Shown: positions 22,215-40,003 of the stretch, in pieces
How the letters are laid out: each line of letters starts with the position of its first letter
Position numbering within the stretch: the first letter of the stretch is position 1
Assembly: GCA_003223325.1 (NCBI GenBank)
Contig: QHYS01000021.1
Span: 5,967 to 52,601 of the forward strand
Origin: Acidobacteriota bacterium
GTDB lineage: Bacteria > Acidobacteriota > Terriglobia > Acidiferrales > UBA7541
Direction of reading: 5' to 3'
Length of the DNA stretch: 46,635 bases
The notes under the pieces: generated by a model
Database searches by the model: none
Seen by the model: the letters and a program-made list of their open reading frames with translations, nothing else
What the model was told of the DNA's origin: nothing
Program-made: the position numbers and the translations under genes

Positions 22215-23431
22215 ACGATACCATCGCGCGTTCGATTCTGGTCGTTTCTCTTGTGAAGGTCGTAGTGCTGCTCTTTCTCGTTTTAACCGCCGTCGCTTAT
22301 CTGGTCTGGTTCGAACGCAAAGTCGCTGCGCATATTCAGGGGCGCTGGGGGCCTTACCGCGTAGGTCCTCATGGCTTGCTGCAGCCGCTCGCGGACGGCG
22401 TCAAGTTTCTCCTAAAGGAAGATGCGACCCCGGCCGGCGTCGATCGCTTTCTTTATTTCTCTGCTCCCCTGCTGACTATGACTCTGGCGATCTCTGCCAT
22501 CGCCATGATTCCGTTTGGTCCAGCGTCCATTCACATTTTTGGCATAGCCACGCCGCTCGTAATCGCGAACATCAGCGTCGGCCTTCTGGCCATCTTCGCC
22601 ATCACCTCCGTCGGCGTATACGGCGTGGCCCTGGGCGGCTGGTCTTCCAACAGCAAGTATTCGCTCCTCGGAGGCCTGCGCAGTTCGGCCCAAATGATCA
22701 GTTACGAATTGTCGCTCACGCTCTCGGTCGTCGGCATCCTGCTGCTGGCCGGAACGTTTAATCTAAGTGAGCTCATCATGCGCCAAGATGGTTACACTTG
22801 GGGCCACTTGCCCAAATGGAACCTGCTGAACCCGACGTTCCCGCAAATACTCGGATTCTTCTGCTATTTCGTTGCCGCCATCGCGGAGACCAATCGCGCC
22901 CCCTTTGACTTGGCGGAGGCCGAATCGGAACTCGTGGCCGGCTACCACACCGAATATTCCAGCTTCAAATTCGCCATGTTCTTTTTGGGAGAGTATGCCA
23001 GCATGATTACGGTCGCCTGTCTCGCCTCAATTCTCTTCCTTGGCGGCTGGCTTTCTCCTTTTCCTCAAACGCCCGGTCTGGACTGGACCCGCTATCTTCC
23101 TGCAGGAGTTTTGGCCGTCGCCGGAGTGGCTCTGATCATCCATGGCGTTCGCTACATCAACGTGTTTGGCCGTATCGCATTGCCTGTTCTGGGAGTCATT
23201 CTCGGTGCGCTATCATTTCTGTGCTCACAGCCGGGCGTTATCGATGATATACAGGGCCCGTTCTGGTTTTTGGCCAAAGTGTTGTTCGTGCTCTTCGTTT
23301 ACGTTTGGGTGCGCTGGACGTTGCCACGGTTTCGCTATGATCAACTGATGCGCTTCGGCTGGAAGGTGCTCTTTCCGGTTGCGCTCTTGAACGTCATATT
23401 GACAAGCCTTGCGGTGGTGATGCGCAAATGA
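22211..23431 (+). CDS. nuoH: NADH-quinone oxidoreductase subunit H (operon 1)
   Basis: 406 residues from GTG 22211, overlapping the nuoG stop. About eight membrane helices; signatures are FERKVAAHIQGRWGP, ADGVKFLLKED and ETNRAPFDLAEAESELVAGY with HTEYSS, the acidic loop that lines the quinone chamber. NuoH links quinone reduction to the proton-pumping chain. A longer frame from 22169 overlaps nuoG deeply and is not needed. nuoI, which normally follows, is missing: the gene overlaps nuoJ directly (ATGA). Confidence 0.93.
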   Translation: MNDTIARSILVVSLVKVVVLLFLVLTAVAYLVWFERKVAAHIQGRWGPYRVGPHGLLQPLADGVKFLLKEDATPAGVDRFLYFSAPLLTMTLAISAIAMIPFGPASIHIFGIATPLVIANISVGLLAIFAITSVGVYGVALGGWSSNSKYSLLGGLRSSAQMISYELSLTLSVVGILLLAGTFNLSELIMRQDGYTWGHLPKWNLLNPTFPQILGFFCYFVAAIAETNRAPFDLAEAESELVAGYHTEYSSFKFAMFFLGEYASMITVACLASILFLGGWLSPFPQTPGLDWTRYLPAGVLAVAGVALIIHGVRYINVFGRIALPVLGVILGALSFLCSQPGVIDDIQGPFWFLAKVLFVLFVYVWVRWTLPRFRYDQLMRFGWKVLFPVALLNVILTSLAVVMRK

Positions 23432-23958
23432 CGCCTCAATTGGTGATTTTCCTGGTGCTGGCGGCCATTGCCATAGCGGGCGCCGTGAACGTGATCCTGC
23501 AACGGCACCCGATTCACAGCGCCATCTCCTTGATTAGCGTCATGATTGCGCTGGCCGGACTCTTCTTGCTTCTCGAATCGGAATTCATAGCCGTGGTCCA
23601 GATCATCGTGTATGCCGGCGCGATCATGGTGTTGTTCGTGTTTGTGATCATGCTGCTCAATGCCGGCGCCGAAGAGCGCACCAACATGAGCCGCATGGCG
23701 CGTTACGCGGGCGTCCCGCTGGCGATCTTCCTGCTTATCGAGCTTGCCTATCAGATTGGCGCAGCGGCCTTATCGATGACGCCGCAGCCACTGGCCGAGG
23801 ACGTGACGCGCCGGTTATCCATGCTCTTGTTCCAGGATTTCGTGTTTCCGTTTGAGTTAACGTCCATTTTGATCCTCATCGCCATTCTTGGCGCGCTGGT
23901 GCTGGCCCAGCGAGGTGAAAGCGTGCCCGCCAAGGGCGGGCCAAAAACAATTACCTGA
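23428..23958 (+). CDS. nuoJ: NADH-quinone oxidoreductase subunit J (operon 1)
   Basis: 176 residues, five predicted membrane helices. [19 protein letters not shown] is the conserved helix 3 with the pi-bulge Tyr/Gly that controls water entry during pumping. The C-terminus ([22 protein letters not shown]) is typical. ATG 23428 overlaps the nuoH stop, showing cleanly that no nuoI ever stood between them in this arrangement or that it was lost without scar. nuoK follows after 38 bp. Confidence 0.92.
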
Positions 23959-23996
23959 AGGCCTGCTCGAATCGGCAGAAGGTAAAGGAGAGAACC

Positions 23997-24299
23997 TTGG
24001 TGCCCATTTCCTACTACCTCGCTCTCAGCGCCGTCCTCTTCGGTCTCGGCGTAATCGGCTTTGTTTTCAAACGCAACATCATCACAATTTTCATGTCCAT
24101 CGAATTGATGCTCAACGCGGTCAACCTTGCTTTCATTGCGTTTGGCCTGGCCCTCGGTCAATTACAAGGGCAGGTATTCGTATTTTTCGTAATCGTCGTG
24201 GCCGCGGCGGAAGCAGCCGTAGGTCTGGCCATCGTAATTGTGATCGCACGGAACCGGCAATCGCTCAACGTCGAGCGCATCAATCTGCTGAAGCTATAA
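23997..24299 (+). CDS. nuoK: NADH-quinone oxidoreductase subunit K (operon 1)
   Basis: 100 residues, three membrane helices with both conserved glutamates: [13 protein letters not shown] (helix 2) and [13 protein letters not shown] (helix 3), needed for proton translocation. The start is TTG 23997, six bases after AAAGGAG (23984-23990); it is supported because the operon 2 paralogue begins with the same MVPI from an ATG. GTG 24000 is a less likely alternative. Followed by nuoL after 7 bp. Confidence 0.92.
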
Positions 24300-24306
24300 G
24301 TCAGGA

Positions 24307-26253
24307 ATGCCGATGCTCGAGCACCTCTGGCTCATTCCGCTGCTGCCGTTGCTGGGCGCGGCCAGCAATGGGATTTTTGTCTCCCGGTGGCCGCGCAGCG
24401 CCGTCAATGCCATTGCTCTGGGCAGCACCGGCCTCTCTTTTCTTGCCACCCTCGAAGTGGCGCGCGAGTTCGCGAACCTCAGTGCGGATCAGATTCCCTG
24501 GCTGCGGTCTTACTTCACTTGGATCGAGGCGGGCAGCTTCCGCGCGGATTTCGCTCTGCAAGTCGATCAGCTCACGCTGATCATGCTGCTGGTGGTGACC
24601 GGCGTCGGCTGGCTGATTCACCTCTACTCGATTGGGTACATGCCCGACGACACAGGCTATCGCCGATTTTTCGCTTATCTTAACCTCTTCATGTTTTTCA
24701 TGCTGACTCTCGTCCTGGCGGCGAACTATCTGGTGCTCTTCGTCGGGTGGGAAGGCGTCGGCCTTTGTAGCTATCTGCTGATCGGATTCTGGTTCCTAAA
24801 GAAGACCGCCACGGATGCGGGTAACAAAGCGTTTTGGGTGAACCGCATCGGCGATTTCGGTTTTCTGCTGGGATTGTTCCTGCTCTTCCGCCAGTTTGGC
24901 ACGCTCGACTTCGCGCCGATCTTTCGGAACTCCGCCGCGCTTCCCGTTGAAACATCCGGACATGGCGTTCTCACCGCGATCGCGCTCCTCCTGCTCGCCG
25001 GCGCCACCGGCAAGTCGGCGCAGCTCCCACTTTACGTCTGGCTGCCCGACGCTATGGAAGGCCCCACTCCCGTCAGCGCGCTCATCCATGCCGCAACAAT
25101 GGTGGCTGCAGGCGTGTACATGGTGGCGCGCTCGCACGTGCTTTTCACCCACGCGCCGGTGGCCATGTTTGCCGTTGCCGTGATCGGCTGCGCCACCGCT
25201 CTTTTCGCCGCGACCATCGCCCTGGTCCAAACCGATATCAAGAGAACGCTCGCCTACTCGACCATAAGCCAATTGGGCTACATGTTTATCGCCTGTGGCG
25301 TTGGCGCTTTTGGAGCCGGAATCTTTCACCTCATGACTCACGCCTTCTTCAAAGCCTTACTGTTTCTCGGCGCCGGCAGCGTGATGCATGCCACGGGTGG
25401 CGAGCAAGACATGCGTCTCATGGGAGGTCTTCGCAAAAGCGTTCCCTGGACCTACGCCACGATGTTCATAGCCACGCTGGCAATCTCCGGCACGCCGGGC
25501 TTCTCTGGCTTCTTCAGCAAGGAAGAGATCCTCTTGGCGGCAGGTACCGGCCCCTACGCTAATTCGGTGATTTACGTGCTGGGAGTGATCACGGCGGGGC
25601 TTACCGCCCTCTACATGTTCCGGCTTCTATTTCTGACCTTCCACGGCGTGCCCCGTTTTGACCAGAAGAAAACGCACGTGCACGAGTCGCCGCGCATAAT
25701 CCTTGCGCCGCTCGCCGTGCTGGCGCTGCTTTCGGTCGTGGGCGGCTGGTGGGCGGCGCCGCATCTAGTGGGCGGCCTCAATTACTTCGATAATTTTCTG
25801 AAGCTCGTGTTCCTCGCGAGCGAAACCTCGAGTTCAACCGACTCGTACAGCGGGAATAGCCAATTGATTGCCACCGTCTTCGGCCCTCCCATGGTGGCTG
25901 CCTTCATAGGTTTCCTGCTCGCCTGGCTGCTCTACATACGCAGGCCGGAAACACCCAAGCGCCTCGCCGAGAGTTTGAGTGCGCCTTACCGGCTGCTGGC
26001 GGGAAAGTATTTCGTTGACGAACTCTACGCCCTCCTCATCGTGCGGCCGCTCGTGTGGATCTCCGCGAATTTCCTCTGGCGCGCCGTGGATGAGGAGAGC
26101 ATCGATGGGCTCGTGAATGGTGTCGCCCGCGAGGCCGGGGAAATTGGGGATCGCCTCCGGCATCTCAATTCCGGCAATATGCGGACGTACGCAGCTTGGG
26201 TGATTTTGGGAGCCGTTGTACTCACGACGCTGCTCGTCTGGACGGTGCGCTAG
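24307..26253 (+). CDS. nuoL: NADH-quinone oxidoreductase subunit L (operon 1)
   Basis: 648 residues, many membrane helices of the Mrp-antiporter type. Pumping residues are in FVGWEGVGLCSYLLIGFW (Glu), GATGKSAQLPLYVWLPDA (Lys) and THAFFKALLFLGAGS (Lys); GPTPVSALIHAATM is the family signature. The C-terminal region includes the amphipathic lateral helix and a final anchor (RTYAAWVILGAVVLTTLLVW). AGGA touches ATG 24307, so ATG 24313 (six-base spacing) may be the real start. Next to nuoM after 1 bp. Confidence 0.94.
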   Translation: MPMLEHLWLIPLLPLLGAASNGIFVSRWPRSAVNAIALGSTGLSFLATLEVAREFANLSADQIPWLRSYFTWIEAGSFRADFALQVDQLTLIMLLVVTGVGWLIHLYSIGYMPDDTGYRRFFAYLNLFMFFMLTLVLAANYLVLFVGWEGVGLCSYLLIGFWFLKKTATDAGNKAFWVNRIGDFGFLLGLFLLFRQFGTLDFAPIFRNSAALPVETSGHGVLTAIALLLLAGATGKSAQLPLYVWLPDAMEGPTPVSALIHAATMVAAGVYMVARSHVLFTHAPVAMFAVAVIGCATALFAATIALVQTDIKRTLAYSTISQLGYMFIACGVGAFGAGIFHLMTHAFFKALLFLGAGSVMHATGGEQDMRLMGGLRKSVPWTYATMFIATLAISGTPGFSGFFSKEEILLAAGTGPYANSVIYVLGVITAGLTALYMFRLLFLTFHGVPRFDQKKTHVHESPRIILAPLAVLALLSVVGGWWAAPHLVGGLNYFDNFLKLVFLASETSSSTDSYSGNSQLIATVFGPPMVAAFIGFLLAWLLYIRRPETPKRLAESLSAPYRLLAGKYFVDELYALLIVRPLVWISANFLWRAVDEESIDGLVNGVAREAGEIGDRLRHLNSGNMRTYAAWVILGAVVLTTLLVWTVR

Positions 26254-26254
26254 T

Positions 26255-27805
26255 ATGCCGCCCTCCTATCTCCTTACCTCCGTGACCTTCCTTCCCCTCG
26301 CGGGAACCACCGCGCTCTTTATGCTGCGTGCGGACGATCATGAATGGATTCGCCGCATCGCGCTGGCCATATCCCTGTTTGAATTCGCGCTCTCGCTGCA
26401 GCTGCTTCGCGGCTTCGCCTTGACTTCTGCGAACTATCAGTTCGTTGAATTTCGCAACTGGATACCCTCGCCGCCGATTCACTATCATCTCGGCATCGAT
26501 GGCATCAGCTTATTTCTGGTTCTGCTCACCACCTTCCTCACGCCCATAGCCATCCTGGTTTCCTGGAAATCGATTGAGCAGCGCGTGCGCGCCTTTTTCA
26601 TCAGCTTGCTGGTGCTCGAAACGGGCACGATCGGCGTGTTTGTTTCGCTCGATCTCTTCCAGTTCTTTCTTTTCTGGGAAGTCATGCTCATCCCCATGTA
26701 CTTCCTGATCGGAATCTGGGGACATGAACGGCGCATCTACGCCGCGATCAAATTCATTCTTTACACGATGCTCGGCTCGATTCTGATGCTTGTGGCGATG
26801 ATCTGGCTCTATGAGCTGAGCGGCTCCTTTGACTTGCCGCAGATACAATCCCTGCTGGTAAGCGGCCAGGTAGCTCTCTCTTTTCAAACCGAGCTTCTCC
26901 TCTTCGCCGCTTTTTTCCTGGCCTTTGCCATCAAAGTGCCGCTCTTCCCCCTGCACACCTGGCTTCCCGACGCGCACACCGAAGCGCCTACCGCCGGTTC
27001 CGTGATCCTCGCGGGCGTGCTGCTGAAAATGGGGACTTACGGTATGCTGCGCTTCTGTCTGCCACTGTTTCCCGAGGCGGCGCATCGCTTTGCTCCTTAC
27101 GTCGCTGTCCTGGCCATCATTGGCATCATTTACGGCGCCCTCGTGGCCATGGTGCAAACCGACCTCAAACGGCTGGTCGCCTATTCTTCGGTCAGCCATC
27201 TTGGCTTCGTCGTGCTCGGCCTGTTTGCTTTCGATCCCACCGCCGTTCAGGGCGCTTTGTATCAAATGCTGAACCACGGCATTTCCACCGGCGCGCTCTT
27301 CGTCCTGGTGGGCATGCTCTACGACCGCCGGCACACGCACCTGATCCGCGAATTCGGCGGATTGGCCTCTCCTATGCCTATGATCGCCTCTCTTTTCCTG
27401 TTTGTCTCGCTGGCCTCAGCGGGCCTCCCCATGCTGAACGGCTTCGTCGGCGAGTTCCTGATTTTGGCGGGCACGTTTGCGCGGAACGTGAGTTGGGCGT
27501 CTTCGGCTGCCGTTGGCATCATTCTTTCCGCGGTATATTTGCTCTGGGCCTACCAGCGCGTTTTCTTCGGCGACCTCATCTACGAAAAGAATCGCACACT
27601 CGCTGACGCCGACCGCCGGGAGTGCGTCGTTCTTCTGGCCATGGCCGTACTCATTCTCTGGATGGGAATCGGGTCTGTAAGTTTCACGCGCCGCACCGAA
27701 GCCTCTGCGCGCAATGTATTTGTGCTCATGCAGCGGCCCCAGGCCTATAACGCCCGTGCAATTCTCAGATCTATCGAGCCTTTGAGATCCGGTGGCGTCC
27801 GTTAA
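26255..27805 (+). CDS. nuoM: NADH-quinone oxidoreductase subunit M (operon 1)
   Basis: 516 residues from ATG 26255; the frame is open to 26216, but this would overlap nuoL. Antiporter-like subunit with HLGIDGISLFLVLLTTFL, FFLFWEVMLIPMYFLIGIWG (Glu), AFAIKVPLFPLHTWLPDAHT (Lys), EAPTAGSVILAGVLLKMGTY (Lys) and LKRLVAYSSVSHLGFV. Forms one of the proton half-channels of the membrane arm. Its stop overlaps the nuoN start (TAATG). Confidence 0.94.
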   Translation: MPPSYLLTSVTFLPLAGTTALFMLRADDHEWIRRIALAISLFEFALSLQLLRGFALTSANYQFVEFRNWIPSPPIHYHLGIDGISLFLVLLTTFLTPIAILVSWKSIEQRVRAFFISLLVLETGTIGVFVSLDLFQFFLFWEVMLIPMYFLIGIWGHERRIYAAIKFILYTMLGSILMLVAMIWLYELSGSFDLPQIQSLLVSGQVALSFQTELLLFAAFFLAFAIKVPLFPLHTWLPDAHTEAPTAGSVILAGVLLKMGTYGMLRFCLPLFPEAAHRFAPYVAVLAIIGIIYGALVAMVQTDLKRLVAYSSVSHLGFVVLGLFAFDPTAVQGALYQMLNHGISTGALFVLVGMLYDRRHTHLIREFGGLASPMPMIASLFLFVSLASAGLPMLNGFVGEFLILAGTFARNVSWASSAAVGIILSAVYLLWAYQRVFFGDLIYEKNRTLADADRRECVVLLAMAVLILWMGIGSVSFTRRTEASARNVFVLMQRPQAYNARAILRSIEPLRSGGVR

Positions 27806-29262
27806 TGTTTCCTCCGCGCCAAGACGTCTTGCGGCTGATGCCGGAGATCATTCTGTCGCTTTCCGGCATCCTGCTAATGCTGATCGAGCCGTTCCTTAGC
27901 GGCGCGCGCCGGACCCTGATCGTCACGCTGGCTGCGCTGGGAAGCGGCCTCGCGCTTGTCTCCACGATTTATCCGGCGACTCTTCCCGGCACCGCTTTTT
28001 CCGGGTTACTGCGCATTGACGGCTTCAGCGTCTTCGTCCACGTGGTCGTGGAAGCGGTGGCGTTCCTGGTGATCATCGGCTCCGCGGATTATCTCGACCG
28101 CGAAAAAATCCAGCACGGGGAATACTACGCCTTGGTTCTCTTCGCAACAGTCGGCATGTGCGTGATGGCGGGTGCTGCCGAACTGATGACCGCCTTTGTT
28201 GGCCTCGAGACCAGCTCCATCTCCACCTACATCTTGGCCGGCTATCGCCGGGACGTTCCGCGCTCCAATGAATCGGCCATGAAATATTTTTTGCTCGGCT
28301 CCTTCGCCACCGCTTTTTTCCTCTACGGGATCGCACTGCTTTATGGCGCTACCGGAACAACCCAACTCGCGCGCATGACCTTTCCTACGACGCCCGGCAG
28401 GGAACGTCTCCTCGATCTCGGATTAGGGCTGATGCTCGTCGGTCTGGCTTTCAAGATCGCCGCCGCTCCTTTTCAGCTCTGGACCCCGGACGTCTATGAG
28501 GGTGCGCCCACGCCCGTGACCGCGCTGATGGCTTCAGGACCAAAAGCGGCGGCCTTCGCGCTGCTGCTGCGCATTCTCGCGACAGTAGGAGCGGCCGGCA
28601 CCTTTTGGTTCTGGGCCCTATGGGTTTCCGCCGCGCTGACAATGTTCGTAGGCAATCTGGCGGCCATCGCGCAATCCAATGTCAAGAGGATGCTGGCCTA
28701 CAGCTCCATTTCGCACGCCGGATATATTCTCGTGGCGCTCGCGGCAGCGGCCGCTTCCGATCAAGTGGAACTGGGAGTCGCCGCGGTGCTCTACTATCTT
28801 GCCGTTTACGCCTTGATGAAGCTGGGCGCGTTTATCTTTGTTTCCCAACTCGGCGGCGAATCCGAACGACACATGGAAATAGACGATTTCCGCGGACTGG
28901 CCGTGCGACAACCGGTCGCGGCTGCCTGCTTTGCGCTGTTTCTCCTCTCGCTGCTGGGACTTCCGGTAACTTCGGGCTTCCTCGGCAAGTTTTATATTTT
29001 CAATGCAGCGCTTGCGTCGCGCCTCATCTGGCTCGCCGTTTTGCTCGCGATCAATACCGTCATCGCCGCGTTTTATTACCTGCGCGTGATCGTGGTCATG
29101 TACATGCGCCAGCCGAACCAGACCTGGCCGCCGGCGCCCATGCCCTGGGCGGTAACTTTTGTGCTCTCGATCGCCGCCGCCGGAACTTTCTACCTCGGCT
29201 TATTCCCAGGCCGCGTCATGGCTTTGGCCACGCAAGCCGCCCTGTCCCTGCCGGGCCGCTAA
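27805..29262 (+). CDS. nuoN: NADH-quinone oxidoreductase subunit N (operon 1)
   Basis: 485 residues, antiporter-like. Signatures: GLETSSISTYILAGY, GLAFKIAAAPFQLWTPDVYE (Lys), GAPTPVTALMASGPKAAAF and VKRMLAYSSISHAGYILVAL. Last gene of operon 1; the TAATG overlap with nuoM supports ATG 27805. Ends 116 bp before the oppositely oriented atpE, with a hairpin between. Clearly related to, but well diverged from, the operon 2 nuoN. Confidence 0.93.
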   Translation: MFPPRQDVLRLMPEIILSLSGILLMLIEPFLSGARRTLIVTLAALGSGLALVSTIYPATLPGTAFSGLLRIDGFSVFVHVVVEAVAFLVIIGSADYLDREKIQHGEYYALVLFATVGMCVMAGAAELMTAFVGLETSSISTYILAGYRRDVPRSNESAMKYFLLGSFATAFFLYGIALLYGATGTTQLARMTFPTTPGRERLLDLGLGLMLVGLAFKIAAAPFQLWTPDVYEGAPTPVTALMASGPKAAAFALLLRILATVGAAGTFWFWALWVSAALTMFVGNLAAIAQSNVKRMLAYSSISHAGYILVALAAAAASDQVELGVAAVLYYLAVYALMKLGAFIFVSQLGGESERHMEIDDFRGLAVRQPVAAACFALFLLSLLGLPVTSGFLGKFYIFNAALASRLIWLAVLLAINTVIAAFYYLRVIVVMYMRQPNQTWPPAPMPWAVTFVLSIAAAGTFYLGLFPGRVMALATQAALSLPGR

Positions 29263-29299: not shown

Positions 29300-29378
29300 C
29301 GACGAAGAATCTGATGTTACTAACAAAAGCCCGCAGTAGCCCTGCGTGCTGAGAACCCAAGAACAACGTATCGTCGAA

Positions 29379-29693
29379 TTATCTGACTTTGATAAAGATG
29401 ATGGCGAAAGTGTACAGCGCCATCGACTCGATCAGCACCAGCGCGAGAATGAGCATGTTTTGAATCACCCCGGCAGCGCCAGGATTGCGCGCCATGCCTT
29501 CCGACGCCGCGGCAGAGGCCCGGCCCTGCGCGATGCCGCAAGCTCCAGAGGCGATGGCCATAGCAAAGCCGGAGGTGATGGCAACCCAGTTGGTCGCCTG
29601 CCCTGTTGCCTGATCCCCAGCCTGAGCGAATGCGACGGGAGCGATCAGGCAGAATGCCATAACCACCAATAGCGCCAAAACGACCTTTCTCAT
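29379..29693 (-). CDS. atpE: ATP synthase Fo subunit c, with N-terminal signal peptide
   Basis: 104 residues from ATG 29693, preceded by AAGGAG ten bases upstream. Residues 1-23 form a signal peptide (MRKVVLALLVVM, ending APVAFA/Q); the mature part of about 81 residues is the usual two-helix hairpin with the loop ARNPG. The ion carboxylate is Glu89 in LIESMALY. Gln56, Ser90 and Tyr94 occupy the positions of Q32, S66 and Y70 of the Na+-binding Ilyobacter c-subunit (identical spacing), whereas T67 is replaced by Met. This suggests, without proving, Na+ capability. Last gene of the nuo2-atp unit; no F1 genes follow. Confidence 0.92.
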   Translation of the reverse strand: MRKVVLALLVVMAFCLIAPVAFAQAGDQATGQATNWVAITSGFAMAIASGACGIAQGRASAAASEGMARNPGAAGVIQNMLILALVLIESMALYTFAIIFIKVR

Positions 29694-29791
29694 CGTGACG
29701 ATTCTCCTTACGCTATGAAATGGCCGTTCGGAGGTGGTTCCCGACATCCTCGTGCAGCCGGGCTCACACGAAACGGCGGATGATGCCGTGA

Positions 29792-30604
29792 TTAGTGCCC
29801 TTCGGAAACCGCGCCGGCCAGATAGATCACCGGCAGAATCGTGAATACAAAGGCCTGCACGAAAGCCACAAAAATATGCAAAATAATGAAAATCACCGGC
29901 GCAAGAAAAGGCAACGGCGCCAAAATGTAACCCGCTAGGTTGACTCTTCCAGCGAAGAGAAACAGGGCTAACGTTAGCCCCAGGAAAATCCCATAAAGCA
30001 GCTCGCTGACCATCATATTCACCCAAAGACGGACGGTGAGCGAGAGCAGCCGCGCCAGATGGCTAAACGTCTCCACCACCACCATCAACGGAGAAAGAGC
30101 CAGATTCGGACCCAGGAAATGCTTGCCGTAATGCACCGGGCCGTGTTTCTTCAGCCCCGACCAGTGGTAATAGAGAAAGGCCACGATGGCGCAGCCCAGG
30201 GGGACGGAAACCTCGGCCGTCGGCGAAGCCAGTCCCGGCACGACGCTGATGAGATTTGAGAATAAAACGAAGAGGCCGATGCTTCCGATCACCGGCAGAT
30301 AGTTCATAGCCCCGTGACCGATATTATTTTCGAGAAGGTCCGCCACGCCCAGCGACATTGGATTGCGCAGCAAAATCTCCATCACTTGCTGCATGCCGCC
30401 GGGATTCTCCACCGAAAGCCGCGCCCGAAGCCACAGAAAAAAGACCACCGCCAGGGCAAACACCAAAAACTCCATGGCAATATGGTTCGGGATGGGATAT
30501 GCGGGGTTGCTAGGTTGAATATGCAGAGCGCTCAAAAGCGCCAGTGCCGGCTTGCCGAAAAGGGCATTCACCAGCTTCGTGATTGCCAGGATGTTCTCTT
30601 CCAT
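29792..30604 (-). CDS. atpB: ATP synthase Fo subunit a
   Basis: 270 residues. Essential Arg192 in SLTVRLWVNMM (with Asn196), the residue facing the c-ring carboxylate; N-terminal IPNHIAMEFLVFA, FSNLISVVPGLASPTAE and the C-terminal HIFVAFVQAFVFTILPVIYL match the family. Provides the ion half-channels of Fo. About 98 bp upstream of atpE and 42 bp downstream of atpI, all on the minus strand. Confidence 0.94.
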   Translation of the reverse strand: MEENILAITKLVNALFGKPALALLSALHIQPSNPAYPIPNHIAMEFLVFALAVVFFLWLRARLSVENPGGMQQVMEILLRNPMSLGVADLLENNIGHGAMNYLPVIGSIGLFVLFSNLISVVPGLASPTAEVSVPLGCAIVAFLYYHWSGLKKHGPVHYGKHFLGPNLALSPLMVVVETFSHLARLLSLTVRLWVNMMVSELLYGIFLGLTLALFLFAGRVNLAGYILAPLPFLAPVIFIILHIFVAFVQAFVFTILPVIYLAGAVSEGH

Positions 30605-30646
30605 CGCCCTTCCGATATCCGTGTTACGGAGCGCACGCCTGGATCA

Positions 30647-31072
30647 TTAGGAGCCGCCCGCATCCTGCCGCACTCCCGTTGACACTAGTTCGTAAACCAA
30701 CGCTAAAACCACCGCCGCAGCCGACGCAAAAAGTCCCGCAAGCACGGGAATTACCGGCAGCCAGGAACGCGTGAGGATAACATAGAGGATTCCGAGCAGC
30801 AAAGCGAAGCGCCCAAAGAACTTGAAGTAGGCGATGGTGGGCACGCGAACGTGCTGAGAACCCGCCTGCGCTGTGGCCGCGCGGCCAAATGCCTGCACGC
30901 TGCCTTTGAGCCACCGAAAATTCACCCACGAAAGCACGGCTCCCACTGCCAACCCCACGCTTCCCCGCCACCCCCAGCGCCACCCCGCCCAGGCCGCACC
31001 CACGCCGCCCAGCAGTAGCGTCAGCCACTCGATGCGGCGCAGCGCTGCGCTTCCAAATGGATCATTCCCCAT
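30647..31072 (-). CDS. atpI: ATP synthase subunit I (AtpI-like)
   Basis: 141 residues with four hydrophobic segments; GAVLSWVNFRWLKGSVQAF and FFGRFALLLGILYVIL resemble the ATP synthase I family, which assists assembly of the c-ring and may carry Mg2+. Short, weakly conserved family, so the call rests on topology plus position between atpZ and atpB. Overlaps the atpZ stop by 11 bases. Confidence 0.78.
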   Translation of the reverse strand: MGNDPFGSAALRRIEWLTLLLGGVGAAWAGWRWGWRGSVGLAVGAVLSWVNFRWLKGSVQAFGRAATAQAGSQHVRVPTIAYFKFFGRFALLLGILYVILTRSWLPVIPVLAGLFASAAAVVLALVYELVSTGVRQDAGGS

Positions 31073-31325
31073 TCTTGCGCCTTACCAAGAGCCGCCGGAT
31101 CACTTCAAACATCCCGCCGGCAAATCCAAGCAGGCCCACAAGCAAAGCCAAAACCGGCGAGCTGCCGAATCGTTTGTCGAGCAGATAACCCAGCCCGGCA
31201 CCGATCACCACGCTTCCCACCAGCACGAACGGCAGATCCATAACATTGGCAAGCTGGCGGGCAAACCCCTCCGGATCGCGCCGTGGCGCACCGGAAATCT
31301 TCGAATCTCGATCTTTATCGACCAA
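31062..31325 (-). CDS. atpZ: AtpZ-like Fo assembly/transport protein
   Basis: 87 residues, two membrane helices (LPFVLVGSVVIGAGLGYLLD and PVLALLVGLLGFAGGMFEVI) with the AtpZ-type GYLLDKRFGSSP turn. Start TTG 31325 lies inside the end of nuoN2 (stop 31315-31317), an 11-base overlap that places the atp genes in the nuo transcription unit. AtpZ and AtpI together are proposed to form a Mg2+/Ca2+ channel that helps the synthase. Confidence 0.8.
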   Translation of the reverse strand: MVDKDRDSKISGAPRRDPEGFARQLANVMDLPFVLVGSVVIGAGLGYLLDKRFGSSPVLALLVGLLGFAGGMFEVIRRLLVRRKNGE

Positions 31326-32850
31326 AGAGTACGGAGGGCAAGGTCAACGAATAAGTCGCCAAGCGGATGAAAGGCTCGGGGTAAATGCCGGCAACCAGGG
31401 TGACAAAGCACATCACCGCCAGCGCCACCGATTGCCCCGGCGTCACCCGCGTCGGTGCTTCGCCTGTCGGCTCGCGCAGCCAGGCGTGTACGACGATGCG
31501 GAAATAATAGTAAAGTGCGGGAACAATATAGAGCGCCCCAAACAGCGCCAGATAATAGTGCCCGGTCTCAATCAGTGCGAGAAATATGTAATACTTACCC
31601 ACAAAGCCGGCCAGGGGCGGAATTCCCGCCAGCGACAGCATAAAGATGAGCAACAGCACCGCCGAGGCAGGACTGCGCTGGAAGAGGCCGTTTAGGTCGT
31701 CGAGCTCGTCGCCGATCAACCCTTGACGCCGCAGCACAATGATGATGGCGAAAGCGCCGATGGTCATGAACGCATATACGAAAAGATAGAAGGCGATTCC
31801 CTTCAGTCCCGTTTCGTTTCCATCCGGCCCGCTCATCGCCGCCACCAGACCCAGCAAGATGTAGCCGACGTGCGAGATCGAAGAATAAGCCAGCAGCCGT
31901 TTGACGTTGGTCTGCGTGATCGCCGCGAAATTGCCCAGCGTCAGCGAAGCAATGGCCACGGCCGCGATGATTCCTACCCAGTTCACGCGCACCGGCCAGA
32001 AAGCATATAGGAAGAGCCGCAGCAGCAGAGCGAAGCTTGCTGTTTTCGATGCCACGCTTACATACGCCGTGATTGTTGTCGGCGCGCCTTCGTAAACATC
32101 CGGCGCCCACTGATGGAACGGCACCGCAGCCACCTTGAAGAAAAGCCCCGCTGCGACAGTCACTAAGGACAGCAGCACCAGTAAATCCGTCGGTCCGCGC
32201 AACTCGAGCGCCGTGCGCACCACGTCGAGATTCGTGCGCGGCACCTGCAGCGGCACTCCCAGCGGCCCATTGATCTCAGCCATGGCGCTGATTCCGTACA
32301 GCAGCGAGAACCCATAGGCCAGCAGGCCCGAACTGAATGCGCCCAGCAGCAGATATTTCACTGCGGCTTCATTCGAGCGCCGCTGGTGGCGTAAAAAGCC
32401 CGTGAGGATGTAAAAGCTGATGGCCATAGTCTCCAGACCCAGAAACAGCACGACCAGGTCGTAGCCGGAGGCCATGAACATCATTCCCACAGTGGCAAAC
32501 AGAAGCAGCGCGTAATATTCGCCGTGATGCTCGTTTTCGATTTGCAGGTAGCGCACCGAAAGCAGAATCACCAATCCCGTGGCCACGAGGAAGATCATCC
32601 CGAAAAACAGGAAAAATGGGTCGACCACAATCGAGCTATTGAAGCCGCCCACTGCTTCCGGGCCAAACGTCCGCAGCCGGTACAGCGAAATGCCGCTGAA
32701 GATTACGCCGAGCATGGCAAAGACGGCGTTGCCCGCTTTGTCCTTTACGCCCAGCATGAAGTCGAAAAGCAAGATGGCCAGGCCGAAAAGCGCAAGCTCC
32801 ACTTCCGGCAGGATTAGGAAGAAGTCGTGGCGAAATGCGGCGGTATCCAT
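31315..32850 (-). CDS. nuoN: NADH-quinone oxidoreductase subunit N (operon 2)
   Basis: 511 residues, antiporter-like: LGLETMAISFYILTGFLRHQ, AGLFFKVAAVPFHQWAPDVY (Lys), EGAPTTITAYVSVASKTASF (Lys) and NVKRLLAYSSISHVGYILLG. Membrane-arm pump subunit. Three bases after nuoM2; its end overlaps atpZ by 11 bases. Longer than the operon 1 copy, mainly in the loop around ALELRGPTDLL. Confidence 0.93.
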   Translation of the reverse strand: MDTAAFRHDFFLILPEVELALFGLAILLFDFMLGVKDKAGNAVFAMLGVIFSGISLYRLRTFGPEAVGGFNSSIVVDPFFLFFGMIFLVATGLVILLSVRYLQIENEHHGEYYALLLFATVGMMFMASGYDLVVLFLGLETMAISFYILTGFLRHQRRSNEAAVKYLLLGAFSSGLLAYGFSLLYGISAMAEINGPLGVPLQVPRTNLDVVRTALELRGPTDLLVLLSLVTVAAGLFFKVAAVPFHQWAPDVYEGAPTTITAYVSVASKTASFALLLRLFLYAFWPVRVNWVGIIAAVAIASLTLGNFAAITQTNVKRLLAYSSISHVGYILLGLVAAMSGPDGNETGLKGIAFYLFVYAFMTIGAFAIIIVLRRQGLIGDELDDLNGLFQRSPASAVLLLIFMLSLAGIPPLAGFVGKYYIFLALIETGHYYLALFGALYIVPALYYYFRIVVHAWLREPTGEAPTRVTPGQSVALAVMCFVTLVAGIYPEPFIRLATYSLTLPSVLFGR

Positions 32851-32853
32851 GCG

Positions 32854-34536
32854 TCAGCGCTTCTCCGCGGTGTTCACGGCGATTGGCTCGGAAGACGCAG
32901 CGATTATTGCGGGGGGAGCCGAAGCAGCCAAAGCTTTGGTCGAGTCGGACTCAGTCCGAGCCGCGTCGTTGGCCGCCGCGACAGGCGGCTTTTCGCCCCA
33001 GCGCTGCGCAGTCGCAGAGTTGTAATAGCCGGGGTTCACCTGCTCGACGATCTGCCGCACCGGCACGTCCAGCACTCGAAAGAGCGGCTTGGGATAGATG
33101 CCGATCCAGAATGCCAGCAGCATCAGTGGCACCAGCGTCGCGTATTCGCGCATATTCAAATCCGGAAGGTGCTCGTTCATGGGATTCGTCACCGGCCCGA
33201 ACATCACCCGCTGGTAAAGCCACAATAGATACGCCGCGCCCAGAACTATGCCGACCACAGCCCATGCCGTCCAGCGCAGGCTCACCTGAAAGACACCGCT
33301 CAGGATCGTAAATTCGCCGATAAAGCCATTCAGCAGCGGCAGTCCCAGCGAGCTGAGCGTGGCAATCAGATAGATCGCGGCGAAATTCGGCATGGGCGTG
33401 GAAAGCCCACCGTATTCGGAGATCATTCTCGTGTGCCGACGCTCGTAGAGCACGCCGACAATAAGGAAGAGCGCGCCGGTGGAAATTCCATGATTGATCT
33501 GCTGGATGACGCTGCCAGAAACGCCGTGCGGATTCAGCGCAAAAATGCCGAGCGTGCAGAAGCCCAGGTGGCTCACCGAGCTGTAAGCGATGAGCTTCTT
33601 CATATCTTTTTGCATCAGGCAGACGAGCGCGCCGTAAATGATGCCCACCACAGAAAGCACCATGAGGATGTTGATGATGTGCTGCCGCGCAACGGCGTCG
33701 GTCGGCAAAAGAGGCAATGAGAAACGGATGAACCCGTACGTGCCCATCTTCAGCAGGACGCCGGCCAGAATCACCGAGCCCGCGGTAGGAGCCTCGGTGT
33801 GCGCATCCGGCAGCCAGGTGTGAAACGGAAACATGGGCACCTTGATGGCAAACGCAAAGAAGAAGCCCCAGAACAGAATGCGTTGCAGGGTCGTCGAGAA
33901 CTGCGGCACCGCGCCCAGCGACGTAGGAATGTCAAAGGTATATGCGGCTCCCGCCCCGGCCACTTCATGCGCGCGGTAGTACAGCGCCAGAATCGCCAGC
34001 AGCATCAACACCGATCCCGCCAGTGTGTAGAGGAAGAACTTGATTGCCGCATAAAGGCGCCGGTCGCTGCCCCACACGCCAATCAGGAAATACATCGGCA
34101 CAAGCATCACTTCCCAGAACAAGTAAAAAAGGAAGAAATCGAGCGCCATAAAGACGCCCAGCATGCCCGTCTGCAGCAGCAGGAAGAGAATGTAGTATTC
34201 CTTCTTTCGGTTCTGGATCGCGCTCCACGACGAGAGAATCGAGATCGCGCCCAGGATCGTGGTCAGCATCACCAGTAGGAAACTGATCCCGTCAATTCCC
34301 AGCGAATAGTGCGCGCCGATGGAAGGAATCCAGTCGTAATTTTCGCGGAACTGATAGCCGGGCGTTCCGATCTGAAATCGCCAAATCAGCGGCAGCGAAA
34401 CGGCCAGGCCGAGGAAGCCGAATACGTTGCCAATCACGCGCTGCGCGTTGTCGAGCTGGCGCGGCACAAACAGCAGCACAATCGCACCAATGAGCGGCGT
34501 GAATAAGATCCAGCTCAGGATGTGAGTTTGGTTCAC
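32854..34536 (-). CDS. nuoM: NADH-quinone oxidoreductase subunit M (operon 2)
   Basis: 560 residues. HYSLGIDGISFLLVMLTT, FFLFYLFWEVMLVPMYFLIG (Glu), FAFAIKVPMFPFHTWLPDAH (Lys), TEAPTAGSVILAGVLLKMGT (Lys) and KKLIAYSSVSHLGFCTLG mark the antiporter-like pump. Beyond the last helix it carries an Ala/Ser/Pro-rich tail of about 60 residues (from VEQVNPGYYNS) that the operon 1 copy lacks. nuoL2 ends 78 bp upstream. Confidence 0.94.
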   Translation of the reverse strand: MNQTHILSWILFTPLIGAIVLLFVPRQLDNAQRVIGNVFGFLGLAVSLPLIWRFQIGTPGYQFRENYDWIPSIGAHYSLGIDGISFLLVMLTTILGAISILSSWSAIQNRKKEYYILFLLLQTGMLGVFMALDFFLFYLFWEVMLVPMYFLIGVWGSDRRLYAAIKFFLYTLAGSVLMLLAILALYYRAHEVAGAGAAYTFDIPTSLGAVPQFSTTLQRILFWGFFFAFAIKVPMFPFHTWLPDAHTEAPTAGSVILAGVLLKMGTYGFIRFSLPLLPTDAVARQHIINILMVLSVVGIIYGALVCLMQKDMKKLIAYSSVSHLGFCTLGIFALNPHGVSGSVIQQINHGISTGALFLIVGVLYERRHTRMISEYGGLSTPMPNFAAIYLIATLSSLGLPLLNGFIGEFTILSGVFQVSLRWTAWAVVGIVLGAAYLLWLYQRVMFGPVTNPMNEHLPDLNMREYATLVPLMLLAFWIGIYPKPLFRVLDVPVRQIVEQVNPGYYNSATAQRWGEKPPVAAANDAARTESDSTKALAASAPPAIIAASSEPIAVNTAEKR

Positions 34537-34614
34537 TGGTATTCTCCCTTGCCTTCTAGTGCCGTTCCAACTTGTTCATCGCACCTCCAGCCATTTGGTC
34601 GAAATAGCTGGCAC

Positions 34615-36690
34615 CTAACGCAGCATGTTGTGCAGCGTCACGCCGGTCACCCGCAGGTAATAACCCAAAAAGACCAGCACTCCCAAAACGATGAGCAGCG
34701 CGTAATTCGATACGCGCCCGCTCTGAATCATTCGCACCGGGTAACTGAAAAACCATACGATGCGCGCCGCTAGGTTTACTAGCCCGTCGATAATCCATTT
34801 ATCCCAAACCATGGACAGGCTCGAGCTCGCCCGCGCCACCCATCCCGCACCGTTCACGCCCAACCCATCGATCACACCCAGGTCAAATGCTCCCAGCGTC
34901 GTACCCAAATCCTTCGTCCGGTTCACGAACATCGCGTCGTAGATCTGGTCCACGTAATACTTGTTGTAGAGCAAACGATAGAGCCCTTCCGATTTTTCTG
35001 CGAACGCGCCGGGTAGGGAGGGTTTGCGCAAATAGAAGTACCAGGCGAGGCCGATGCCCACCAGAGCCACCAGCACCGAAATCCCCATCAATGCCCACTC
35101 CGTGTTGCGCTCGGTCGCCTCCGGAACTGCAGCGATGACCTCCGCATGGCGCGCGATCACCGGGTCCAGAAATTTTGCAAAATGATCGCTGCCACCCAGA
35201 GATTCCGGCCAGCCAATCCATCCGCCCACTACCGAGAGAATCGCCAGAATAATGAGCGGCCACGTCATGGATGGGGGCGACTCGTGAATGTGGTGCTCCA
35301 CTCCGTGTGCCACACGTGATTCGCCAAAAAACGTCAGAAACACCAGCCGGAACATGTAAAACGCCGTCAGGCCCGCGGTTACGAACCCGATTCCCCAAAG
35401 TACTGGCCGCGCGTTGAAGGAAGCCGCCAGAATCGCGTCTTTGCTGACGAATCCGGCCAGCGGCGGAATCCCTGAAATCGCGATGGTCGCTATCAAAAAC
35501 GTCCAAGCCGTTTGGGGAATCTTGCCCCACAACGCGCCCATCTTGCGCATGTCCTGCTCGCCGCCAAGTGCGTGGATCACGCTGCCGGAACCAAGGAAGA
35601 GCAGTGCCTTGAAGAAGGCGTGCGTCATCAAGTGAAAGATTCCCGCCGTAAATGCGCCCACGCCCAGCGCCAAAAACATGTAGCCGAGCTGGCTGATCGT
35701 GGAGTAGGCCAGCACGCGCTTGATATCGTTCTGCACCAGGCCCATGCTCGCCGCATAGATAGCCGTCAGCGCGCCAATCGTGGCCACCGCGCCCAATGCC
35801 ACGGGCGCAAGTTGGAAGACCACGTTCATGCGCGTGATCATGTACACGCCCGCCGTTACCATGGTCGCAGCATGAATCAGCGCGCTAACCGGCGTGGGAC
35901 CTTCCATCGCATCCGGCAGCCAGACATACAGCGGAATCTGCGCCGACTTCCCTGTTGCGCCGACGAATAGCAACAGCGCGATCGCCGTCATCACGCCGTT
36001 GCCCACGGTGAATCCTCCCCCCTCGATAGCCGGACCGATCTCTGTGAAGCGCAGCGTGCCAATCGTATTAAGCAGCAGCAAGAGCCCCAGGACGAATCCC
36101 GCATCGCCAATGCGGTTCACTACGAAGGCCTTCTTCCCCGCATCCGATGCCGATTTGCGCAAGAAATAAAATCCGATCAGCAGATAGCTGCAAAGCCCCA
36201 CGCCCTCCCAACCGACAAACAACAGAAGTAGGTTATTCGCCAGCACCAGAACCAGCATGGAAAACATGAACAGATTCAGATAGCCGAAGAACCGGTAATA
36301 GCCGCCTTCGTGCGCCATGTAGCCGGTGGAATAAACGTGGATGACAAAGCCGACGCCGGTCACCACACCAATCATCACCGCGGAGAGCGCATCGAGCAGC
36401 ATTCCCCACGGCGCGCTGAAGTTCAAAACCCGCCCGGAAATCGTGTGCATCACTCCGGCCGGCACCCAGTCGAAGAGCACAATCTCCACAACGCGCTGCG
36501 CCGGAGACCGCGCAATCAATTGCACGATGGCTGCAAAAGCGAAGACCATCGCCAGGCCCACGCTGCCCACGCCTACCCAGCTGACGCTCTTGTTGGAAAG
36601 CCGCCGACCGACGAACAACATGGTCGCCGCGCCTGCCAGCGGAAAAAGCGGGATCAGCCAGACATTCGCCAGGAAAAATTCAGGAGGCAT
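34615..36690 (-). CDS. nuoL: NADH-quinone oxidoreductase subunit L (operon 2)
   Basis: 691 residues, longest pump subunit. FVGWEGVGLCSYLLIGFYFL (Glu), VGATGKSAQIPLYVWLPDA (Lys), GPTPVSALIHAATMVTAGVY and MTHAFFKALLFLGSGSV (Lys) are intact. The C-terminal third holds the lateral helix region (KYYVDQIYDAMFVN) and a last anchor (VSNYALLIVLGVLVFLGYY). Between nuoK2 (42 bp upstream) and nuoM2. Confidence 0.94.
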   Translation of the reverse strand: MPPEFFLANVWLIPLFPLAGAATMLFVGRRLSNKSVSWVGVGSVGLAMVFAFAAIVQLIARSPAQRVVEIVLFDWVPAGVMHTISGRVLNFSAPWGMLLDALSAVMIGVVTGVGFVIHVYSTGYMAHEGGYYRFFGYLNLFMFSMLVLVLANNLLLLFVGWEGVGLCSYLLIGFYFLRKSASDAGKKAFVVNRIGDAGFVLGLLLLLNTIGTLRFTEIGPAIEGGGFTVGNGVMTAIALLLFVGATGKSAQIPLYVWLPDAMEGPTPVSALIHAATMVTAGVYMITRMNVVFQLAPVALGAVATIGALTAIYAASMGLVQNDIKRVLAYSTISQLGYMFLALGVGAFTAGIFHLMTHAFFKALLFLGSGSVIHALGGEQDMRKMGALWGKIPQTAWTFLIATIAISGIPPLAGFVSKDAILAASFNARPVLWGIGFVTAGLTAFYMFRLVFLTFFGESRVAHGVEHHIHESPPSMTWPLIILAILSVVGGWIGWPESLGGSDHFAKFLDPVIARHAEVIAAVPEATERNTEWALMGISVLVALVGIGLAWYFYLRKPSLPGAFAEKSEGLYRLLYNKYYVDQIYDAMFVNRTKDLGTTLGAFDLGVIDGLGVNGAGWVARASSSLSMVWDKWIIDGLVNLAARIVWFFSYPVRMIQSGRVSNYALLIVLGVLVFLGYYLRVTGVTLHNMLR

Positions 36691-36732
36691 AAAGGGCTCC
36701 CCGAAAACGCGGAGCCGGTGCTTCTATGTGAG

Positions 36733-37035
36733 TCACCATTTCAAAATGTCCATTTCGTCCGCCAATACCGTCTCGCGATTGCGAAAAAAGGCGATGATGA
36801 TTCCCAGGCCCACGGCCGCCTCTGCCGCGGCATCGGTGATAATAAAAATGGCGAAGATCTGCCCTTCCACCGAGCCCACCAGCCGCGAGAACGCCACCAG
36901 ATTGATGTTCACTGCGTTCAGAATCAGTTCGATAGACATCAGGATGATGATCACGTTCCGCCGCGTCACGATGCCCACGATGCCGATGGCCAGCAGCGCC
37001 ACGCTCAGAAAGATGTAATGTCCGATCGGAACCAT
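36733..37035 (-). CDS. nuoK: NADH-quinone oxidoreductase subunit K (operon 2)
   Basis: 100 residues, three helices. Both conserved glutamates are present: LMSIELILNAVNINLVAF and [14 protein letters not shown]. Opens MVPIGHYIFLSVALL from ATG 37035, three bases after the nuoJ2 stop. Same length as the operon 1 copy but diverged along its whole length. Confidence 0.93.
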   Translation of the reverse strand: MVPIGHYIFLSVALLAIGIVGIVTRRNVIIILMSIELILNAVNINLVAFSRLVGSVEGQIFAIFIITDAAAEAAVGLGIIIAFFRNRETVLADEMDILKW

Positions 37036-37038
37036 ATC

Positions 37039-37545
37039 TCAAACTCTCTTCTTCGCCATGACGACCGCGCCCACCATGGCCACCAGCAGAAGAATCGACG
37101 CAATCTCAAAAGGCAGCATATAGTTATGAAATAGATAGAACGCCACGCGCTCCGTATTCGGTTCCAGCGATTCCGCGGGCGCCGCTGGCACCGTGTACAA
37201 CGTTCTCCGGCTCACTGCAATCGCCGCCGCCACCTGCGCTGCCAGTACCGCCGAGACGATCAAGGCCACAAACCATTGCCGGTTGAACTGCACCTGATGC
37301 AGCGCCACGTCCAGATTCACCAGCATGATCACGAAAACGAACAGCACCATGATCCCGCCCGCGTAAAGAATCACTTGCACGATAAATAGAAACTCTGCGT
37401 TCAAGTTGAGGAAAATTCCCGCCGTCGCCAGCAGCGCCGTCACCAGAAAAATTGCACTCTGCACGGCATTCCGCCGCGTCACCACCAGGATCGCGGACAA
37501 GATCGCCAGCGCCGCGAAAAAATAGAAGACCCCCTGATCAAGCAT
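37039..37545 (-). CDS. nuoJ: NADH-quinone oxidoreductase subunit J (operon 2)
   Basis: 168 residues from ATG 37545; the frame is open further upstream but only antisense-like residues are gained. [20 protein letters not shown] is the conserved pi-bulge helix; the C-terminus PFEIASILLLVAMVGAVVMAKKR matches. Overlaps the nuoH2 stop by eight bases, so nuoI is cleanly missing here as well. Confidence 0.92.
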   Translation of the reverse strand: MLDQGVFYFFAALAILSAILVVTRRNAVQSAIFLVTALLATAGIFLNLNAEFLFIVQVILYAGGIMVLFVFVIMLVNLDVALHQVQFNRQWFVALIVSAVLAAQVAAAIAVSRRTLYTVPAAPAESLEPNTERVAFYLFHNYMLPFEIASILLLVAMVGAVVMAKKRV

Positions 37546-38860
37546 CGACTGATGTCTCCTCCTCTTCGCCGACTCGCGGGTGTTCGTGCTTCTCTCCCGT
37601 CGCCAGAAGATACGCCCCTGCTGCCAGCGTGAGCACAATTCCCAGGATCAGCGCCGGCGCCGCGGGCCAGTTCAGTTGTCGGTGCAGCGCCAGCCCCAAG
37701 CCCATGCCCATCACGTTGACAATCGAAAGCGGAACCAGAAATTGCCAGCCCAAGCGCATTAGCTGATCGAAGCGATATCGCGGAAACGTAAACCGCAGCC
37801 ACATGAAGACGTAAATATAGGCTGCGACTTTGAAGAGAAACCAAAACGCGCCGTGTATGCCCGCCTTCGACGAAGCCAGCAAAGAGCCGGCAGGCGCCGC
37901 TAAGGGCATCGCCAAGGCAAGTGTCAGAGCGATGCATAGCAGCCCCACCGCAACCATGAACATCTTCTGCACCGCCACCGGCTGCTTTGGTGCGCGCCAG
38001 AAGCAATACCCCGCCACGCCCAACATCAGTAGAGGCGGCAGATAATCGAGAAAATTGAACAACGGCGTGTTCGCAAACGGTCGCAGCCATCCGCCCAGAA
38101 AGAGCGTCGTCGCGATCGACGCCACCACGATCATGTTCGTGTATTCGGCCAGAAAATAAAGCGCCCAGCGGAAGCCGCTGTATTCCGTCATGTAGCCGGC
38201 AACCAGCTCCGATTCCGCTTCCGGCATATCAAACGGGGCGCGATTCGTTTCCGCGATGGACGCCACCAGGTAAATGAAGAATCCCACCGGCGCGACAAAG
38301 ATGAACCACCAGCCGGTCGCCGACTGTGCCTGCACAATTCCGCGCGTCGAAAGCGTTCCCGCCAGCAACAGCGCGCCCACAATAGCAAGTCCCGCCGAAG
38401 TCTCGTAGCTCACCAGTTGCGCCGCGCTGCGCAGCGCGCCTAGCAGCGAATAGTGGCTGTTGGAAGCCCAGCCGCCCAGTACGATGCCGAAGATTCCCAG
38501 CGAACTGACGCCTAGGATGAAAAGCAGGCCGATATTCAGGTCGGCGATTTGAAAAAAGGGACCAATGGGCAGCGCCGCCAGCGCCAGCATCGCGGCCGTC
38601 ACCGAAATCAGCGGCGCACCCCAAAACACGAGCCGGTCCGCGTTCTCCGGGATGATGTCTTCCTTCAGCAGCAGCTTCACCGCGTCGGCAATGGGTTGCA
38701 ACAGTCCGTGCGGCCCCACGCGCATGGGTCCCAGGCGCACCTGCATGTCCGCCATAACCTTGCGCTCGACCAGCACGATATAGCCGGCCAGCAGCGGCAG
38801 CAGCGCCACAATGACCAGCGCAAACAGCACCGGCAAAACGTACGGCATGATCACATTCAT
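37538..38860 (-). CDS. nuoH: NADH-quinone oxidoreductase subunit H (operon 2)
   Basis: 440 residues. VLVERKVMADMQVRLGPMR, LQPIADAVKLLLKED and ETNRAPFDMPEAESELVAGY with MTEYSG are the quinone-chamber signatures. One or two extra C-terminal helices (PALILGIVLTLAAGAYLL) and an acidic tail (GEEEETSVDA) go beyond the operon 1 copy. ATG 38860 directly follows the nuoD2 stop. Confidence 0.94.
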   Translation of the reverse strand: MNVIMPYVLPVLFALVIVALLPLLAGYIVLVERKVMADMQVRLGPMRVGPHGLLQPIADAVKLLLKEDIIPENADRLVFWGAPLISVTAAMLALAALPIGPFFQIADLNIGLLFILGVSSLGIFGIVLGGWASNSHYSLLGALRSAAQLVSYETSAGLAIVGALLLAGTLSTRGIVQAQSATGWWFIFVAPVGFFIYLVASIAETNRAPFDMPEAESELVAGYMTEYSGFRWALYFLAEYTNMIVVASIATTLFLGGWLRPFANTPLFNFLDYLPPLLMLGVAGYCFWRAPKQPVAVQKMFMVAVGLLCIALTLALAMPLAAPAGSLLASSKAGIHGAFWFLFKVAAYIYVFMWLRFTFPRYRFDQLMRLGWQFLVPLSIVNVMGMGLGLALHRQLNWPAAPALILGIVLTLAAGAYLLATGEKHEHPRVGEEEETSVDA

Positions 38861-40003
38861 TTAGCGGTCAACTTCCCCGAGCACGATGTCGAGCGTCCCA
38901 ATCACCGCAACCACGTCCGCCACCAAGTGCCCGCGGATCATCTGGTCCAGCGCTTCCAAATTCATCAGGGACGGCGGGCGAATCCGCACGCGATACGGCT
39001 GCGTCGTGCCATCGCTCACGATGTAGTAACCCAATTCGCCCTTGGGCCCCTCAATCGAGTGATAAATCTCTCCCGGCGGCGGCTTCAGCACTTTACCCAC
39101 TTTTCCGAGGATCGGCCCCGCCGGAATCTTCTCAATGGCCTGCAGGCAGATCTTTCGCGATTGCCGCATCTCTTCGAGGCGCACCAGGTAGCGGTCATAC
39201 GTGTCACCGCTTTTCCCCGTCGGTATGCTGAATTCGTACTGATCGTAGGCCGCGTAGGGCATAGCCTTGCGAATATCCCACTGCACTCCGCTCGCCCGCA
39301 GTACCGGCCCCGTAACACCCATGGCAATCGCCGCGTCGGCAGTCAGGACTCCGATGCCTTTGGTCCGGCCCACCCAGATGCGATTCTCGGTCAGCAGCGC
39401 TTCGTATTCGTCCACGCGCTTGTCGAAGTCCTTGCAAAATCGCTCCACGTCTTTTTCCAGCTCGTCGTAGGCCTCGTATTGCATGCCGCCGATGCGGAAG
39501 GCGTGTGTGGTTAGCCGCGCCCCGCAATACTTTTCGAAAATCTTGAGGATCTCCTCGCGCTCGCGCAAGCAATAAAAGAGCGGTGTCAGAGCACCAATAT
39601 CGAGCGCATGCGTTCCCAGCCAGAAGAGATGGCTGGCGATCCGCTGCAATTCCGTGAGGATCGTGCGGATCACGCGCGCCCGCGGCGGAGCCTCCACGCC
39701 CAATAGTTTTTCCACTGCCTCGCAATAGCCCAGACCGTTCGACACAGCCGCGACGTAATCCATCCGGTCAACGTACGGCGCGAATTGCTGATAATTGCGA
39801 TGCTCTGCGATTTTCTCCACGCCGCGATGCAGGTAGCCGATCACGCATTCCGAACCGACCACCTTCTCGCCATCCAGACGCAGCTTCACCCGCAGCACGC
39901 CGTGCGTAGAAGGGTGCTGCGGCCCCATATTGAGAATGATTTCGTCCGCGCCGAGAACCGTGGTCTCCACATTGGTCCCGGCCGTTTTGTATCGCTCCGC
40001 CAT
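38861..40003 (-). CDS. nuoD: NADH-quinone oxidoreductase subunit D (operon 2)
   Basis: 380 residues. [20 protein letters not shown] carries the quinone His and [20 protein letters not shown] the Tyr; [29 protein letters not shown] and [13 protein letters not shown] complete the signature. Six bases after nuoC2 and flush with nuoH2. Needs NuoB to form the quinone site, and no nuoB is in this operon. Confidence 0.94.

Follow-up and report, generated by a model that had tools for sequence, protein, structure and literature searches.

The genome analysed here encodes a single F-type ATP synthase, split between two loci. One of these, the Fo block atpZ-atpI-atpB-atpE (atpZIBE) at the tail of the complex I operon nuo2, is in our assessment probably an exchangeable cassette that underwent several replacements at its site within the family. 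We studied this block in a 46,635-nt stretch of Acidobacteriota DNA, hereafter the window, together with the corresponding loci of related genomes. The cassette extends from the nuoN2 stop codon to where the convergent nuoN1 has its 3′ end. Its replacement by a diverged block, which we observe as tree incongruence and as breakpoints, probably proceeded through homologous recombination in the two sets of flanking nuo genes, which are conserved, and the new a/c pair would then assemble on the resident b and F1 subunits to give a chimeric enzyme.

Organization of the nuo-atp locus

The genes nuoN2, atpZ, atpI, atpB and atpE run in this order on the minus strand, co-directional and with two 11-base overlaps, just as a preliminary description of this DNA had reported, and Pfam matches agree with the assignments. 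The upstream flank of the cassette is nuoN2 (31315–32850; PF00361, and NCBIfam TIGR01770 above cut-off), the last gene of nuo2, whose product retains all of the pump residues E140, K239, K269 and K419. It shares positions 31315–31325 with atpZ (31062–31325; TTG start; PF09527), the first gene of the cassette, which in turn shares positions 31062–31072 with atpI (30647–31072; PF03899). Gaps of 42 nt and 98 nt then precede atpB (29792–30604; PF00119), encoding Fo subunit a, and atpE (29379–29693, ATG at 29693), the last gene of the cassette, encoding Fo subunit c, for which the PF00137 match was made on a longer ORF (29379–30026). In translation, the ion-site codons of the c subunit (29412–29429, minus strand; ORF residues 89–94) read E-S-M-A-L-Y, a motif that we refer to below as form I. 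The N-terminus of AtpE carries a signal-peptide-like stretch (MRKVVLALLVVMAFCLIAPVAFAQA) before the usual c-subunit hairpin, and similar extensions are present in relatives. The spacer between atpB and atpE (window 29693–29792) is ~95–115 nt long in many relatives and a few nt long in others, and is possibly a translation-enhancing leader of atpE. Conservation of the overlap, proposed earlier as a check, was found in part: L008, L010 and L011 have the same 11-base overlap with a TTG or GTG start for atpZ, whereas other relatives have short gaps, for example +11 to +15. Short spacing in most relatives and overlap in some indicate that it is the close packing that is conserved, and not the precise overlap.

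The overlaps, combined with the absence of a terminator between nuoN2 and atpZ, suggest from the sequence that nuo2 and atpZIBE are likely to be read as one message. A promoter and terminator scan of the nuoN2-atpZ junction returned no strong site, the promoter-like matches being at the level of shuffled sequence. A weak terminator-like hairpin with a T-rich tail lies 3′ of atpE (29332–29346, minus strand), and its folding is no better than that of shuffles. As the tail of the nuo2 operon, atpZIBE would be expressed from the nuo2 promoter, and translation may be coupled at the 11-base overlaps.

The rest of nuo2 (32854–41340, minus strand) consists of nuoA2, C2, D2, H2, J2, K2, L2 and M2, with no E, F or G. 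On the other side of the cassette lies the convergent operon nuo1 (15987–29262, plus strand), consisting of nuoA, C, D, an EF fusion, G, H, J, K, L, M and N1, of which nuoN1 (27805–29262, plus strand) forms the downstream flank of the cassette. The NuoE-NuoF fusion is a single 620-aa ORF (window 18033–19895). The 11-subunit complex I is the form that lacks NuoEFG, and nuo2 resembles it in having no NADH module, as NuoE, F and G are absent from the operon, but differs from it in that nuoB and nuoI lie outside the operon and in that nuo2 is tied to atpZIBE. Both nuoB and nuoI are also missing from nuo1, and two copies of each are found on other contigs (C134 and C209; C308 and C282); the nuoB match on C134 reads through a stop codon.

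A single ATP synthase with genes in two places

The window genome is a metagenome-assembled genome (MAG) of 6.1 Mb in 377 contigs, with MAGs of group 2 Acidobacteria / Terriglobia as its closest named relatives. A search of it places b, b′, delta, alpha, gamma, beta and epsilon away from the nuo-atp locus, bearing out the earlier expectation that the F1 genes lie elsewhere. A complete atp operon at another locus, which the preliminary description had considered would make the present set redundant, was searched for in this 98.4% complete genome and none was found. Contig C147 carries atpH-A-G-D-C, with the C-terminus of a second b subunit at the contig end directly before atpH, and contig C103 carries one b-type gene that runs off its end. 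From these two contig ends we infer continuity across the break, so that b′-b-delta-alpha-gamma-beta-epsilon probably form a single operon that the assembly has interrupted. The genome as a whole contains one atpB, one b-type match and one catalytic alpha/beta pair, a third PF00006 match being much weaker; it thus has one F-type ATP synthase, with genes in two places. Closed genomes belonging to the class of the window genome place atpB and the gamma gene hundreds of kb to Mb apart on one contig.

This division, in which a and c are adjacent without b at the window locus and the b subunits are grouped with the F1 genes, is an already known layout. The ATP synthase of Deltaproteobacteria is described as split into F1-b and c-a units (PMC5709465), and Pelobacter carbinolicus as having atpZIBE and atpXFHAGDC operons (PMC3543383), so that there too the genes for a and c, along with Z and I, are separate from those for F1 and the b subunits. 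Unlike in those organisms, the a-c block of the window follows one complex I operon and has a second on its other side; in the passages of those papers that were consulted, we found no nuo linkage.

Linkage to complex I across the Acidobacteriota

The arrangement is no coincidence. Of the 84 family genomes that have atpB, 55 carry a nuoN2-like gene upstream of it, co-directional and at most 2 kb away, and 67 carry a convergent nuoN1 within 6 kb on the downstream side; in many of the genomes without detected linkage the contig border is reached there. Elsewhere in the class, nuoN is likewise followed directly by atpZ or atpI in several families beyond this one (L077, L079, L084, L085, L090), as it is in further classes of the phylum (L100, L102, L111, L113, L114), and this recurrence indicates an old shared neighbourhood that is not peculiar to the window genome. 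The linkage is not obligatory: intact atpZIBE without nuo2 is found in genera g4 and g6 and in part of g5 and g2, and in genus g11 nuo2 and atpZIBE are on separate contigs, with unrelated genes upstream of atpZ. A search of open-access papers for nuo-atp linkage in Acidobacteria or Geobacter returned nothing on point.

These observations bear on an earlier proposal, which we now consider very improbable, that the linkage determines in what ratio complex I and ATP synthase are made or which ion they use. The overlaps and the linkage speak for it, as does an orphan NuoN that is still attached to atpZ in four genomes, but the persistence of atpZIBE without nuo2, together with the location of the F1 genes elsewhere, argues against a ratio-fixing device. 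Because F1 and b must match Fo in number and yet sit at another locus, one message cannot set the ratio of the enzyme, and because the cassette, with its rotor ion site, differs from species to species next to constant nuo flanks, linkage to nuo does not pin ion specificity.

The orphan NuoN is an observation in its own right. In G172, G211, G214 and G213 (loci L062, L119, L120 and L121), a NuoN2-like ORF precedes atpZ/atpI and the rest of nuo2, NuoD2 included, is gone; where the contig reaches far enough, the lone gene lies downstream of proC. In three further genomes, G228, G232 and G198 (L064, L122 and L070), nuo2 is reduced to membrane-arm genes without nuoC or nuoD, and in G228 and G232 NuoL is cut to 136–163 aa and NuoM is without a conserved lysine. 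Charged residues of NuoN have been proposed as proton carriers (PMC9271201), and at least one of these has been lost in all seven genomes with reduced nuo2, versus 1 of 38 others (Fisher p 1.8e-7). Three lone NuoN copies have dN/dS values of ~0.15–0.17 along their length, like intact copies, on NG86 distances that are near saturation, and these three nest within their own genus in the tree. The lone NuoN thus appears to be under purifying selection, as a maintained protein and not obvious wreckage, and a copy that is dead as a pump raises the question of whether NuoN may serve something other than complex I. We found no report of a lone NuoN before atpZ in the open-access literature.

Sharp breakpoints at the cassette borders

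DNA identity between the window and L011, a locus from the same genus, is 85–93% in nuoN2 up to the stop codon, ~40–70% over most of atpZIBE, and 83–95% in nuoN1; between the window and L008 there is no dip across atpZIBE. Several pairs of relatives have flanks that are ~75–90% identical and a cassette that is ~50–65% identical, with sharp borders, and in four pairs besides window/L011 the breakpoints fall at the nuoN2 stop or 3′ end and, on the other side, at the nuoN1 end or just before that gene is reached. Many pairs across the family combine similar NuoN1 with dissimilar AtpB: in protein identity, NuoN1 versus AtpB gives 94% versus 55% for L129/L152, 84% versus 52% for L126/L162, 84% versus 51% for L127/L164, and 91% versus 59% for L062/L119. 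The best cross-genus atpB matches reach only ~70–75%. Most of the genomes are MAGs, and the contigs tested span both flanks and cassette. The pair G125/G227, checked as a candidate recent transfer, was alike over flanks and cassette; we dropped it as congruent, and it serves as a negative control. We also dropped a ranking of pairs by greater similarity in atpB than in nuoN1, which fragmentary nuoN1 matches had spoiled.

The bin from which L011 derives (G195) contains two contigs, C239 and C14 (L145 and L146), that are 94.7% identical over 544 nt of nuoN2 and then continue into different versions of the atp cassette, one of them beginning its cassette with window-like sequence. This is consistent with two strains, or possibly with a mixed bin.

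Two cassette forms and the c-ring ion site

The 57 readable AtpE sequences of the family fall into two forms without intermediates: form I, with E-S-x-x-L-Y (20 of 57), to which the window AtpE belongs, and form II, with E-T-L-x-L-F/L (37 of 57). AtpB likewise forms two deep groups, which are matched by the AtpE forms. At least six changes of form are required on the nuoN1 tree versus one on the atpB tree, and both forms are found within each of the genera g5, g8 and g9. The MAGs G234 and G235 had appeared to hold two forms, but all of their pieces are form I and we did not count them. Since forms I and II are distinguished by the c-ring ion site, the Fo motor can differ between species whose complex I is almost the same.

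The window AtpE has Q, E, S and Y at the ion site and Met at position 67. Form I resembles sodium-translocating F-type c-rings of the Ilyobacter type in its Gln, Glu, Ser and Tyr ligand positions; predicted sodium enzymes, however, carry a polar residue at c-subunit position 67 (PMC2359735), which here is Met or another mostly non-polar residue, and form II is without the Tyr. We therefore set sodium specificity aside for the window synthase, as Met at position 67 leaves the ligand set of PMC2359735 incomplete; protons would be the more likely coupling ion.

Phylogenetic incongruence between cassette and flanks

We defined the clades to be tested from nuoN1 and from genus labels, independently of atpB, and built the trees by quick search. 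In approximately unbiased (AU) tests, atpB rejects all of the flank clades: g8 (p 1.7e-69), g9 (p 3.6e-4), g4+g5 (p 3.3e-3), L062+L119+L120 (p 2.1e-3) and the L129 group (p 3.1e-4). The other cassette genes behave similarly, with atpI rejecting 5/5 clades and atpE 4/5, the one not rejected being g4+g5 (p 0.59). Of the flank controls, nuoM1 recovers 5/5 clades and nuoN2 4/5, with support of 97–100%; the L129 group is neither recovered by nuoN2 nor rejected (p 0.33). That cassette trees reject clades which the flank genes recover indicates that the cassette moved and the flanks did not. For the window with L011, both of which carry form I, the AU test gives p 0.42, and their case accordingly rests on the breakpoints.

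Discussion

Two histories without transfer have to be set against in-place replacement. Vertical evolution of a conserved nuo2-atpZIBE operon, with atpB and atpE evolving fast in some lineages, would suit a linkage that is old and widespread. Rate alone, however, gives no sharp breakpoints at gene borders, the cassette is sometimes closer to that of another genus than to that of a sister species, and the AU tests reject the flank clades despite congruent flank controls, which leaves this history quite improbable. A somewhat better but still unlikely account is that the two cassettes stood next to each other in an ancestor and that lineages then lost one or the other. Such sorting would accommodate a slot that is always the same and the presence of both forms within g5, g8 and g9, but none of the genomes examined contains two complete cassettes, and the two would have had to coexist for a long time, across several speciations. 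The swaps between subgroups of form II, with L129 in the L150 lineage and L062 apart from L119, would moreover demand further duplicates.

Replacement of the cassette in its slot thus remains our preferred explanation. It resembles gene displacement in situ, a concept mentioned together with mosaic operons in, for example, PMC4481853, in that a block is replaced by a diverged homologue with gene order unchanged, but differs from the usual case in being repeated at one slot, in involving core Fo subunits and in alternating between two ion-site forms. For exchange of Fo genes, the open-access literature yielded no report on point.

What would drive such replacement is a more speculative matter. 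We tentatively entertain, as a possibility that we would not favour over its negation, that the a/c motor is a horizontally exchanged two-form trait in which diversifying selection, exerted for instance through inhibitors or through pH and ion conditions, favours swaps between forms I and II at a fixed slot, and that it works as a chimera on the resident F1. The proposal that the exchange of forms is a response to soil antibiotics or phage-borne agents acting on the a/c ion site, or to differences in pH or ion conditions, is doubtful, although the changes do cluster at the c-ring site beside the key glutamate (positions 66 and 70), a region contacted by known c-ring inhibitors. Selection by inhibitors, pH or ions as the driver of the swaps is a speculative suggestion. 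The core genes of ATP synthase are commonly regarded as passing down by vertical descent. Whatever the driver, a fixed slot with repeated replacement of the a/c module, two discrete forms and unchanged neighbours provide natural paired comparisons for the role of the c-ring ion site, and the swaps bear on the interchangeability of Fo and F1 and on what may drive such exchange in soil bacteria.
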